The notes beneath the pieces are model-generated. The model did not search any database and was not told where the DNA came from. It saw only the letters and a program-made list of their open reading frames with translations. Positions 2,835 through 32,027 of a stretch of DNA of 64,000 bases are shown in pieces (position 1 is the stretch's first letter; each line of letters opens with the position of its first letter). Both the position numbers and the translations under genes were made by a program. Origin of the DNA: Streptomyces sp. NBC_00683 (GTDB lineage Bacteria; Actinomycetota; Actinomycetes; Streptomycetales; Streptomycetaceae); contig NZ_CP109013.1 of assembly GCF_036226745.1 (NCBI RefSeq), forward strand, positions 6,386,001 to 6,450,000, in the 5' to 3' direction.

Positions 2835-8847
<6,013 letters not shown>

Positions 8848-28795: not shown

Positions 28796-30229
28796 ATGCG
28801 CCGAGCGAAAATCGTTTGTACCCTGGGACCCGCAACCGACACATACGAGCAGATCAAGGCACTCGTCGAAGCGGGAATGGACATTGCCCGCCTCAACCTC
28901 AGCCACGGCACCTACGCCGAACACGAGCAGCGATACCACCACGTACGCAAAGCATCCGAAGAGACCGGACGCAGCGTCGGAATCCTCGCCGACCTTCAAG
29001 GCCCGAAGATCCGCCTCGGACGCTTCACCGAAGGCCCCGTACTCCTTGAACGCGGCGACGACTTCACCATCACCGTCGAAACCGTAGAAGGCGACCGCCA
29101 CACCTGCGGAACCACCTACGACGGCCTCGCCGCCGACGTCACCACAGGCGAACGCATCCTCGTCGACGACGGCCGCGTCACCCTCGAAGTCACCCAGGTC
29201 GACGGACCACGCGTCCACACCACCGTCATCGAAGGCGGCATGGTCTCCGACCACAAAGGACTCAACCTCCCCGGCGTCGCCGTCTCCGTCCCCGCACTCT
29301 CCGAAAAGGACATCGACGACCTCCGCTGGGCCCTGCGCACCGGCGCCGACATCATCGCCCTCTCCTTCGTACGCAGCGGACGCGACATCCACGACGTCCA
29401 CCGCATCATGGACGAGGAGGACCGCCGCCTCCCCGTCATCGCCAAGGTCGAAAAGCCCCAGGCCGTCGACAACATCGACGACATCGTCGCCGCCTTCGAC
29501 GGCATCATGGTCGCCCGCGGAGACCTCGGCGTCGAAATGCCCCTGGAACAGGTCCCGATCGTCCAGAAGCGCGCCATCAAACTCGCCAAGCGCAACGCCA
29601 AGCCGGTCATCGTCGCCACCCAGATGCTCGACTCGATGATCGACAACTCACGCCCCACCCGCGCCGAAGCCTCCGACGTCGCCAACGCCGTCATCGACGG
29701 CACGGACGCGGTGATGCTCTCCGGCGAGACCAGCGTCGGCAAGTACCCGATCGAAACCGTCCGCACGATGGCCCGCATCGTCGAAGCGGCCGAGGAGGAC
29801 ATCCTCGCCAAGGGCCTCCCGCCCCTCACCGACCGCAACAAGCCCCGCACCCAGGGCGGCGCGGTCGCCCGCGCGGCAGCCGAGATGGGCGACTTCCTCG
29901 GCGCCAAATTCCTGGTCGCCTTCACCCAGAGCGGCGACACGGTCAAGCGGCTCTCCCGCTACCGCTCCCCGATCCCGCTCCTGGCCTTCACCCCGGACGA
30001 GGCCACCCGCGCCCAGCTGAACCTCACGTGGGGCGTGGAGACGTTCCTCGGGCCGCACGTGGACTCGACGGACGCGATGGTGGCGCAGGTGGACGAGGAG
30101 CTGCTGCGGATCGGGCGGTGCCAGAAGGGGGACGTCGTCGTGATCACGGCCGGCTCCCCGCCCGGAGTCGCGGGCTCGACGAACCTGGTGCGGGTGCACC
30201 ACATCGGCGAGGACGACAGCCCGAAGTAG
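28796..30229 (+). CDS. pyk: Pyruvate kinase
   Basis: A 477-residue glycolytic enzyme that makes pyruvate and ATP from phosphoenolpyruvate and ADP. It starts MRRAKIVCTLGPAT. The substrate motif MVARGDLGVEMPLEQVP is near residue 240, followed by KRNAKPVIVATQMLDSM and TDAVMLSGETSVGKYP. The full C-terminal regulatory domain is present (GDVVVITAGSPPGVAGSTN). There is no ribosome site; the -10 six bases upstream suggests leaderless transcription. Codon choice changes sharply at about 30,020 from C-ending to G-ending codons within the gene. It is convergent with an HTH/LAGLIDADG gene, 13 bp apart. Confidence 0.98.
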   Translation: MRRAKIVCTLGPATDTYEQIKALVEAGMDIARLNLSHGTYAEHEQRYHHVRKASEETGRSVGILADLQGPKIRLGRFTEGPVLLERGDDFTITVETVEGDRHTCGTTYDGLAADVTTGERILVDDGRVTLEVTQVDGPRVHTTVIEGGMVSDHKGLNLPGVAVSVPALSEKDIDDLRWALRTGADIIALSFVRSGRDIHDVHRIMDEEDRRLPVIAKVEKPQAVDNIDDIVAAFDGIMVARGDLGVEMPLEQVPIVQKRAIKLAKRNAKPVIVATQMLDSMIDNSRPTRAEASDVANAVIDGTDAVMLSGETSVGKYPIETVRTMARIVEAAEEDILAKGLPPLTDRNKPRTQGGAVARAAAEMGDFLGAKFLVAFTQSGDTVKRLSRYRSPIPLLAFTPDEATRAQLNLTWGVETFLGPHVDSTDAMVAQVDEELLRIGRCQKGDVVVITAGSPPGVAGSTNLVRVHHIGEDDSPK

Positions 30230-30242
30230 GGGCGGACTCGGC

Positions 30243-31022
30243 TCAGTATTTCGGCCCGACGTGAGCATCCATGAGCGCGACGGATGCCCGTCGGGCGACG
30301 GAGATGTTGTACTTCTTGCCCGCGCGGGTGCAGTGCGTCCACTCGATGCCGAGCTTGTCGAGGGTGTCCGTGTACAGCTCCCGGATGTCGTCCGAGACGT
30401 TGGTGAACCAGTACCGCGGATACTCGTACCGCTTCCGTACGCCGCCGACCATCCGGGTCGTCCAGTTCATGTTCCGGCAGCCGTCGGAGTGGATGAGGCC
30501 GCGGATGAAGTCCCAGGGGTGCGCGTCGACGATTTCCTGCTGCCACGGTTCGAGGATGATGCGGCGTTCGTGCTTCTTGCCGGGTCCGTGCTGCGGGAAG
30601 ACGCATGTCCAGTGTTTCGTATAGGACTTGACCTCGACGCAGCCGCTCCTGTGGCGCCGTCCGGTGCGCGGCATGGGCATCACCCGACGCATGGCCGACT
30701 CCGCCTCATCGATCAGGCCGGCCCATGTTTCACCACAGAAGATCGACAGGTGGTTCTGCTTCGGCTTGGCGATGATGTGGCCGTCTCCGAGGTAGAGCCC
30801 CAGGAGATATGCGTACGCGACGCGGTCGACGTCCCGGCCGGTGCACACCGGGCAGTCGGTGGCCTGCACGTACTCCACGCCACGGCGCTTGCGGTCCTCG
30901 TGGAGCCACCAGCCGATTGTTCCGCGAGGCACATTGAGGAGTTCTGCAACTACTCGATTTGTGGTCCCGCCCCTCAGAAGGGCAAGCGCTTCGTCACGTA
31001 TCGATGGATTGTGCTGTCCCAT
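30243..31022 (-). CDS. HTH + LAGLIDADG-like homing-endonuclease-type protein
   Basis: A 259-residue protein not embedded in an intron or intein. An N-terminal helix-turn-helix (SIRDEALALLRGGTTNRVVAELLNVPRGTIGWWLHEDR) is followed by a short CPVC segment. Two LAGLIDADG-type helices come next: AYLLGLYLGDGHI (about residues 78-90) and FIRGLIHSDGCR (about 175), each with the metal-binding aspartate. An active double-motif endonuclease, or a domesticated DNA-binding regulator, are both possible. ATG 31022 is used; an in-frame GTG at 31079 adds 19 residues, and neither has a strong ribosome site. It lies 111 bp downstream of, and on the same strand as, the unusual tRNA, so the two may be co-transcribed. 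Confidence 0.8.
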   Translation of the reverse strand: MGQHNPSIRDEALALLRGGTTNRVVAELLNVPRGTIGWWLHEDRKRRGVEYVQATDCPVCTGRDVDRVAYAYLLGLYLGDGHIIAKPKQNHLSIFCGETWAGLIDEAESAMRRVMPMPRTGRRHRSGCVEVKSYTKHWTCVFPQHGPGKKHERRIILEPWQQEIVDAHPWDFIRGLIHSDGCRNMNWTTRMVGGVRKRYEYPRYWFTNVSDDIRELYTDTLDKLGIEWTHCTRAGKKYNISVARRASVALMDAHVGPKY

Positions 31023-31133
31023 GAAGTGGAGTCTTCTGCGGCCTTCGCTGGCGTGCACCAGATTCGAAGGAGCGTTCACCGGGAGGGGTGAAGATCGCCA
31101 ACATGCGAATCAACCTTGGAAACGAAGGAGAAG

Positions 31134-31206
31134 TGCCCCGAGTCGGATTCGAACCGACGCTGTATGGGTTTTGAATCCATGGCCTCTGCCGCTGGGCTAC
31201 CGGGGC
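31134..31206 (-). tRNA. tRNA with anticodon CAA but a short variable loop (atypical Leu-type tRNA)
   Basis: A full cloverleaf can be drawn on the minus strand: 7-bp acceptor (GCCCCGG with TCGGGGC), D arm with AGCGGCAGA loop, 5-base anticodon stem with loop TTCAAAA, a 5-nt variable loop ACAGC, and T arm GTCGG-TTCGAAT-CCGAC, A73. The loop gives anticodon CAA (31171-31173), which reads the leucine codon UUG. Bacterial tRNA-Leu normally has a long variable arm, so this is not a standard tRNA-Leu. The last anticodon-stem pair is A31-C39, a mismatch. CCA is not encoded. Its amino acid cannot be told. Confidence 0.85.
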
Positions 31207-31306
31207 CCCTTCGAAACGAAGGATCCGCGGGACCCTCCGTGCCTCAAACATACCGCAACTAGGTAGGCTCTTGGGAGCTGCACCCCTGTCTTGACCAAGG
31301 AGCCCC

Positions 31307-31963
31307 GTGACCACCCCCGAGTCGCCCCAGCCCGTAGACGCCGCCGACGACGACAAGTCGCACGTCCCGCCGCTGACGACCCGTGTCGTCATCGCCGAGG
31401 ACGAGGCGCTCATCCGTCTCGACCTCAAGGAGATGCTGGAGGAGGAGGGCTACTCGGTCGTCGGTGAGGCCGGCGACGGCCAGCAGGCCATCGAGCTCGC
31501 CCGGGAGCACAAGCCGGACCTGGTCATCCTCGATGTGAAGATGCCGGTCCTCGACGGGATCTCCGCTGCCGAGAAGATCACGGAGGAGTCCATCGCCCCC
31601 GTGCTGATGCTCACCGCGTTCTCGCAGCGCGACCTCGTCGAGCGGGCCAGGGACGCCGGTGCGATGGCGTACCTGGTGAAGCCGTTCAGCAAGAGCGACG
31701 TCGTGCCGGCCATCGAGATGGCCGTGTCCCGTTTCTCGGAGCTGAAGGCGCTGGAGAACGAGGTCGCCGACCTCTCGCAGCGGCTGGAGACCCGGAAGCT
31801 GGTGGACCGGGCGAAGAGCATTCTGCAGACGGATTACGGCCTCTCCGAGCCCGCCGCGTTCCGGTGGATCCAGAAGACGTCGATGGACCGCCGGCTCTCC
31901 ATGCAGCAGCTCGCCGAGGCGCTGATCGAGGACGCCGAGGAGAAGAAGAAGGCGGCCGAGTAA
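31307..31963 (+). CDS. pdtaR: ANTAR-domain response regulator (PdtaR type)
   Basis: A 218-residue two-component response regulator that acts on RNA. The N-terminal receiver domain has the phosphorylated Asp in LVILDVKMP (about residue 75), the acidic pocket AEDE and the lysine in LVKPF. A coiled linker (ELKALENEVADLSQRLETRKLVDRAK) leads into the ANTAR helical domain (SEPAAFRWIQKTSMDRRLSMQQLAEAL), which binds paired RNA hairpins to prevent termination. GTG start with AAGGAG just upstream; a -10 TAGGCT lies at 31264-31269. No histidine kinase is adjacent. A strong terminator separates it from livF. Confidence 0.95.
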   Translation: MTTPESPQPVDAADDDKSHVPPLTTRVVIAEDEALIRLDLKEMLEEEGYSVVGEAGDGQQAIELAREHKPDLVILDVKMPVLDGISAAEKITEESIAPVLMLTAFSQRDLVERARDAGAMAYLVKPFSKSDVVPAIEMAVSRFSELKALENEVADLSQRLETRKLVDRAKSILQTDYGLSEPAAFRWIQKTSMDRRLSMQQLAEALIEDAEEKKKAAE

Positions 31964-31978
31964 GCCCCGTAGGGACAT

Positions 31979-32027
31979 ACGAAGGAGGCCCGCACCCCGG
32001 ATCGATCGGGGTGCGGGCCTCCTTCGT
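31979..32027. terminator. Bidirectional terminator
   Basis: Very strong hairpin: 21-bp arms (31979-31999 and 32007-32027) with a 7-nt loop, between the convergent pdtaR and livF genes. Confidence 0.92.

Follow-up and report, generated by a model that had tools for sequence, protein, structure and literature searches.

The window analyzed here (the whole stretch of 64,000 nucleotides) carries a single tRNA gene according to ARAGORN, and this gene pairs a CAA anticodon, of the leucine type, with a class I tRNA body. Our results indicate that its product is probably a leucine-charged tRNA that reads UUG, and that its locus has probably undergone repeated replacement of the tRNA by mobile alleles, by way of a homing endonuclease and phages. 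The locus comprises the following features.

31134 to 31206, minus strand: class I tRNA-Leu(CAA) (ARAGORN; Rfam RF00005, 50.2 bits; covariation)
31208 to 31222, minus strand: CCTTCGTTTCGAAGG, a quasi-palindrome directly 5' of the tRNA (sequence; locus survey)
31114 to 31128, minus strand: CCTTCGTTTCCAAGG, almost the same motif repeated immediately 3' of the tRNA (sequence; locus survey)
30243 to 31079, minus strand: predicted free-standing LAGLIDADG homing endonuclease, 278 aa (ORF, Pfam, alignment, AlphaFold, Foldseek)
28796 to 30229, plus strand: pyruvate kinase (pyk), the neighbor on the endonuclease side (Pfam PK)
31307 to 31963, plus strand: ANTAR response regulator (RR), the conserved neighbor of the tRNA (Pfam Response_reg and ANTAR; synteny)

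The tRNA was called by ARAGORN as tRNA-Leu(caa) at 31133-31206 of the minus strand. Over 31134-31206 it scores 50.2 bits with Rfam RF00005 (gathering score 29), which places it within the tRNA family. The 73-nt gene has a 7-bp acceptor stem, the anticodon CAA at 31171-31173 in the loop TTCAAAA, and A73 at 31134, and it does not encode CCA. Its variable region measures 5 nt, short of the long arm of 10 nt or more that characterizes class II tRNA-Leu; the sequence-only reading that had described a class I body with a leucine-type anticodon as unusual was thus borne out. The A31-C39 mismatch (31176/31168) that it had singled out is real and recurs in the family, in which 17 of 38 members lack a standard 31-39 pair (14 with A-C and 3 with C-U). 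The D stem takes 3 bp most naturally, like that of class II tRNAs, a point that the sequence-only reading had not mentioned. An Rfam match to Plastid-ycf2 on the plus strand (31.4 bits, under its own cut-off) was taken as the tRNA read backwards.

The tRNA set of the own genome (G000, 8.52 Mb, single contig) was obtained by an RF00005 search followed by ARAGORN naming of every match above the cut-off. Among the 69 tRNAs above the cut-off, one of which (tRNA-Gly) was named only at a relaxed ARAGORN setting, the window gene is the only one with a CAA anticodon. The class II tRNA-Leu genes comprise one CAG, two GAG, and one UAA gene; an ordinary class II tRNA-Leu(CAA), the presence of which had been named as an argument against the unusual gene, was looked for and not found in this list. 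A loop-to-T-loop pattern scan of the same genome yielded no further CAA leucine candidate. One of its matches, at G000:C1:764997-765042 (L069) and missing from the RF00005 list, was rejected as a leucine tRNA, being a selenocysteine tRNA (TCA anticodon) by ARAGORN. The search also returned two odd low-scoring tRNAs with CCA and CAT anticodons (5985517-5985591 and 3287308-3287380 of the same contig; 40.6 and 33.3 bits), as well as a partial sub-threshold match at 3939262-3939306, about 10 kb from the tRNA-Thr(TGT) at 3949191, which is perhaps the far end of an integrated element.

The distribution of the same tRNA across relatives, which had been proposed as a check, was determined in 61 genomes. 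Blastn with the 73-nt gene gave matches in 30 of them (own genome included), and ARAGORN called these 30 loci as 29 CAA and 1 UAA, all class I. A class I CAA pattern scan matched 43 of the same 61 genomes. The early patterns required T32 and missed tRNAs with C32, a requirement that was relaxed in the later pattern. Across the phylum, 30 of 396 genomes were matched (own included, some of other bacterial classes), with a pattern so narrow that absence elsewhere is no proof; the matched locus in G280 held no tRNA. Two of these genomes showed paired matches 5-10 kb apart on one contig: G355:C24 at 67364 and 77745, and G418:C19 at 15452 and 20652, where the 15452 copy consists only of the 3' half of the tRNA, as an integrated element at a tRNA would leave behind. 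Within an alignment of 38 class I sequences, 97.9% of pair cells were standard, 15 of 21 pairs showed two-sided changes, and compensatory (two-sided) changes amounted to 134 cells compared with a shuffle mean of 33. Based on these values, the cloverleaf is not a product of chance. A73 and A14 were each invariant (38/38), the GG.AG stretch was kept in 35 of 38 members, and at the 15-48 pair 30 members had A-U while the remaining 8, the window copy among them, had G-C.

The RR gene adjoins the class I gene in most loci, other genera included. The locus of M. tuberculosis leuV and Rv1626 may be the same one. RR was searched for in the 18 of the 61 genomes without a class I match and was found in 15, and next to it 14 of these 15 relatives carry a class II tRNA-Leu(CAA) of 83-87 nt by ARAGORN. 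The fifteenth (G048) gave no tRNA, its RR match beginning at base 17 of the contig, and three genomes (G032, G051, and G060) had no RR match, hence no class could be read there. The tally over the 61 genomes is 43 class I, 14 class II, and 4 not readable by these searches. No genome among the 61 was found to carry both classes, a statement that relies on the tRNA list for the own genome and, for the relatives, on a relaxed class II pattern that still required AGAC in the D loop and caught 9 of the 14 class II genes known at the locus. A second, different class II tRNA-Leu(CAA) was observed away from the RR locus in one relative (G008:C602:950-999; L107). On the far side of RR, a long near-perfect palindrome between the RR and ABC transporter genes (window 31979-32027) is probably a two-way terminator.

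The class of tRNA-Leu(CAA) has repeatedly switched at this locus. The RR gene was used as a single-gene proxy for species history. On the RR DNA tree of 42 genus loci, 33 of class I and 9 of class II, 9 class changes were needed, at least 7 of them forced by well-supported branches, compared with an average of 8.3 for shuffled labels, and a single class II clade was rejected (AU p 7.5e-25). The tree of 79 named loci needed 20 changes, 16 of them forced, compared with 25.2 for shuffled labels; 8-10 of 500 shuffles were as low, which indicates that class is somewhat clustered. Mean identity over the compared pieces in 33 genomes was 0.674 for tRNA-Leu(CAA), 0.945 for tRNA-Leu(CAG), 0.927 for tRNA-Leu(UAA), and 0.849 for RR. 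Similarity in the CAA gene did not follow that in RR (rho -0.06), whereas that in the UAA gene did (rho 0.43, 0 of 1000 permutations as high) and that in the CAG gene did so weakly (rho 0.148, 62 of 1000 permutations as high); the corresponding value for the next ABC gene was 0.62 (28 genomes). The closest pair of opposite class by RR (L241/L275) shares 98.5% identity in RR and 96.4% in pyk, against 68% for the tRNA and 69% for the endonuclease. The alignment of this pair diverges after the RR leader GAGCCTACCTAG and rejoins at a common terminator-like hairpin ahead of the endonuclease. Wholesale differences in the upstream stretch, acceptor, and D arm lie between near-identical neighbors.

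The ORF between the tRNA and pyk was counted from the first GTG, and the true start may be later. It has a helix-turn-helix-like N-terminus followed by two LAGLIDADG-type motifs, with a Pfam LAGLIDADG_3 score of 22.3 bits, just under the 22.5 cut-off. Both motifs recur in an alignment of 19 members, in which D99 and D199, presumably the catalytic Asp residues, are invariant (19/19). The AlphaFold model (pLDDT 87) has I-Tsp061I as its top Foldseek match (E 2.4e-8, TM 0.50 by query), with other LAGLIDADG enzymes among further matches. By its motifs and modeled fold, the predicted product is a LAGLIDADG homing endonuclease. The endonuclease dN/dS values of 0.08-0.15 in 11 of 11 chosen pairs indicate purifying selection, while some copies are broken or absent and loci without a detectable endonuclease occur in both classes.

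A scan of named genomes gave 582 relatives, of which the best 80 were kept. In all 80 of these loci, which were picked by endonuclease similarity and so say nothing on loci without the gene, tRNA-Leu(CAA) ends 48-125 nt before the matched endonuclease. This best-80 set comprises 32 class I and 48 class II loci, with RR in 79 and pyk in 76. Placed on the endonuclease tree of the same set, class needed 11 changes compared with 25.3 for shuffled labels (0 of 500 as low). For the 21 genus loci whose endonuclease is intact, similarity between the tRNAs showed no correlation with that between the endonucleases (Mantel rho 0.054, with 230 of 1000 permutations reaching this value), so strict joint inheritance of the two is not supported there; inheritance of tRNA and endonuclease as one block is supported at the class level in the best-80 set but not in the 21-locus set. 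Four viral contigs carry endonuclease relatives with 32-37% identity, in three of them behind a tRNA-Leu(UAA), and two of these three look like near-copies of each other. On a viral contig (L285), a well-formed tRNA-Leu(CAA) call at 3109-3182 overlaps an endonuclease-matched reading frame.

The two 15-bp quasi-palindromes on either side of the window tRNA are near-identical. The corresponding motif, CCTT-N4-8-AAGG, was found directly upstream and/or downstream of the tRNA in 56 of 65 genus class I loci (downstream in 54) and in none of 57 genus class II loci, in counts that pool two sources with possible overlap of species. Outside the genus, none of 40 loci had it, 35 of them being class I and 5 class II. 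The motif suggests that the class I alleles of the genus share one origin.

Class I tRNA-Leu genes are also present in viruses. Two Streptomyces phages carry a class I tRNA-Leu(CAA), the gene of phage Alone3 being 79.7% identical to the window tRNA over 69 nt. The class I pattern caught at least 120 viral contigs, and among those 120 the calls were 101 class I tRNA-Leu(CAA), 4 selenocysteine, and 15 none. Among the matches listed, the same contigs also had UAG genes (35 class I, 6 class II) and UAA genes (21 class I, 13 class II). One viral contig is identical to the gene of G054, and the other best viral matches to host alleles reach 0.89 or less. In Tsukamurella, an integrase adjoins the tRNA. 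Among the window ORFs between RR and pyk (three examined with Pfam) no integrase was recognized, and the integrase with attP next to the replacing tRNA that tRNA-dependent lysogeny would call for was thus not found. Mycobacteriophages are reported to integrate at tRNA-Leu-CAA, and phage Gaia, which uses an 8-bp core, to disrupt the M. smegmatis gene and to bring its own tRNA-Leu-CAA (PMC10865867). The Gaia tRNA is class II (83 nt). A segment beside the integrase of phage Thibault (Omegavirus) aligns, with no long arm, with 43 of the 45 3'-terminal bases of another genome's class I tRNA at 97.7% identity, and the 44-bp core of the Omega group is reported to be common with the host tRNA-Leu (PMC3706429). 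Read from this related phage's attachment core, the host tRNA-Leu-CAA of M. smegmatis appears to be class I.

The amino acid inserted at UUG was assessed on alignments of RR, pyk, and the ABC gene, after removal of rows that contained a stop or fell below 60% identity with the gene of the window. Class I genomes contributed 78 UUG codons in 38 columns, which were aligned in class II genomes with Leu in 76.3% of 955 cells, the remaining residues including V (7.4%), I (7.2%), and M (4.9%); conversely, 12 UUG codons (10 columns) in the reverse test were aligned with Leu in 82.1% of 632 cells. Control sites were more purely Leu (85.6% for CUG, 89.9% for CUC), and the lower share at UUG may reflect looser positions for a rare codon. 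Leucylation by E. coli LeuRS is reported to need A73, A14, A15-U48, G18G19, and A20a, with the long variable arm dispensable (PMC9976931). By the same numbering, the window tRNA has A73, A14, G18G19, and A20a, whereas its 15-48 pair is G-C instead of the A15-U48 of E. coli. Leucine is therefore the best reading for the window tRNA, which would perform an ordinary job in an extraordinary body. The sequence-only reading had offered three other possibilities, none of which found support. That UUG is read as another amino acid, or that an unexpected synthetase charges the tRNA, is highly improbable: the class I body, the G15-C48 pair of the window copy, and the slight rise of V, I, and M relative to CUG and CUC sites would fit it, yet the aligned residues are mainly Leu in both directions, a class II tRNA-Leu(CAA) substitutes at the same locus (in 14 of the 15 class-I-negative relatives that gave an RR match), and A73, A14, and in 35 of 38 members the GG.AG stretch are kept. 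Reassignment of UUG was accordingly rejected on the codon-alignment evidence. We likewise consider it very unlikely, if marginally less so, that the gene is silent or has a non-translational job while the UAA tRNA reads UUG. UUG is rare (2.69 per 1000 in the three genes), the genome has a tRNA-Leu with a UAA anticodon that might also read UUG by wobble, and a consensus scan found no sigma-70-type promoter for the window tRNA; against this stand the strong compensatory covariation, the presence of a CAA gene, either class I or class II, in 57 of 61 genomes (with the remaining 4 beyond the reach of these searches), one tRNA-Leu(CAA) gene apiece in six Streptomyces according to Table 1 of PMC4932002, and the replacement carried by Gaia for the tRNA-Leu-CAA that it breaks (PMC10865867), as well as the mainly leucine-aligned UUG sites and the class II genes at the same locus.

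Exchange of classes at one locus by homing and phage-linked replacement is the most likely explanation of these results. The sole CAA tRNA found in the own genome would read UUG and receive leucine from the ordinary LeuRS; its body is class I, with a 3-bp D stem like that of class II. At the RR-pyk locus, an essential tRNA would have been repeatedly replaced by divergent mobile alleles of class I or II, every replacing allele bringing its own upstream stretch. The likely agents would be the LAGLIDADG endonuclease, whose breaks would lead to donor-templated repair that co-converts the tRNA, and phages that integrate in tRNA-Leu(CAA) or bear their own. An account in which prophages and phage-borne tRNAs cause the swaps (tRNA-dependent lysogeny followed by prophage loss), with the endonuclease as a passenger, is quite plausible, though we would put it somewhat below an even chance. 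It agrees with the Gaia case (PMC10865867), the abundance of class I tRNA-Leu in viral contigs, the Tsukamurella integrase, and the separate tRNA 3' half 5 kb from the other match in G418, but class is tracked better by endonuclease lineage than by the neighbor gene, and, bar the contig identical to the G054 gene, the best viral matches to host alleles reach 0.89 or less, with the Alone3 gene at 79.7% identity to that of the window. Escape from nucleases or toxins that cleave a given tRNA-Leu is an unlikely cause of the exchange; phage tRNAs have been proposed to evade tRNA-targeting defences (PMC10264068) and VapC11 cleaves tRNA-Leu(CAG) (PMC6265470), yet the fixed position of the endonuclease would be left unexplained. 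Slightly less probable still is an in situ origin of class I from a class II gene that lost its variable arm, without replacement. Some class I and class II genes do have anticodon-arm and T-arm letters in common (G029 and G036 versus G030), but where the neighbors are near-identical the two classes have entirely different upstream stretches, acceptors, and D arms, and the class I flanking motif, present on at least one side at 56 of 65 loci, is absent from all 57 class II loci.

The following known systems come closest. Bacterial class II tRNA-Leu (E. coli, Streptomyces) has in common with the window tRNA the CAA anticodon, A73, A14, G18G19, A20a, and the 3-bp D stem, and in relatives the chromosomal locus, whereas the class I gene lacks the long arm and has another acceptor stem, T8A9, and a length of 73-77 nt. 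Animal mitochondrial tRNA-Leu, the only exception named in the review PMC9976931, is likewise without the long arm, but the window gene is on a bacterial chromosome and forms a full cloverleaf. A tRNA-Leu(TAG) with a "short variable loop" is described for a mycobacterial tRNA cluster that includes an HNH gene (PMC6582537); that gene is an additional copy next to an ordinary class II one, unlike the window gene, which is the sole one and has another anticodon. This remark is the only mention of a class I tRNA-Leu in actinobacteria or phages, or of an endonuclease behind it, that our searches of the open-licence PMC literature brought to light. In the tRNA-dependent lysogeny of Gaia (PMC10865867), a host tRNA-Leu(CAA) is disrupted and a phage isoacceptor replaces it, the two apparently being of different class. 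That case involves a resident prophage, whereas between RR and pyk of the window nothing beyond the tRNA and the endonuclease was recognized. Free-standing LAGLIDADG enzymes with I-Tsp061I and I-DmoI folds resemble the predicted endonuclease in fold, the two motifs, and the invariant Asp, but the latter lies outside any intron or intein as far as seen, and behind tRNA-Leu(CAA) in all 80 kept loci (best 80 of 582). We propose that what is new here is the locus, with its recurrent replacement of an essential tRNA by mobile alleles. One bacterial genus uses both forms of tRNA-Leu at one locus for an apparently essential tRNA. Its natural allele swaps make it possible to test what the variable arm contributes to leucine identity, and the locus offers many natural instances of essential-gene replacement in association with homing endonucleases and phages.

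The locus may, as a tentative and rather doubtful extension, be a natural cleave-and-rescue system, in which the endonuclease would cut rival alleles of an essential tRNA while linked to a divergent, cut-resistant, functional one. If so, class I and class II tRNA-Leu alleles would circulate in Streptomyces as drive and resistance alleles, and a UAG locus with HNH genes would be a second case. The only tRNA-Leu(UAG) found in the own genome is class I too (G000:C1:5369955-5370029; L199 4952-5031). It is followed by two HNH endonuclease ORFs (Pfam) and flanked by genes that we take to be rdgB-like and peroxiredoxin-like. At the corresponding place, identified by common neighbors, tRNA-Leu(UAG) is class II in G012, G024, G008, and G037, and the G037 locus has one HNH-like homologue that scores just under the Pfam cut-offs.
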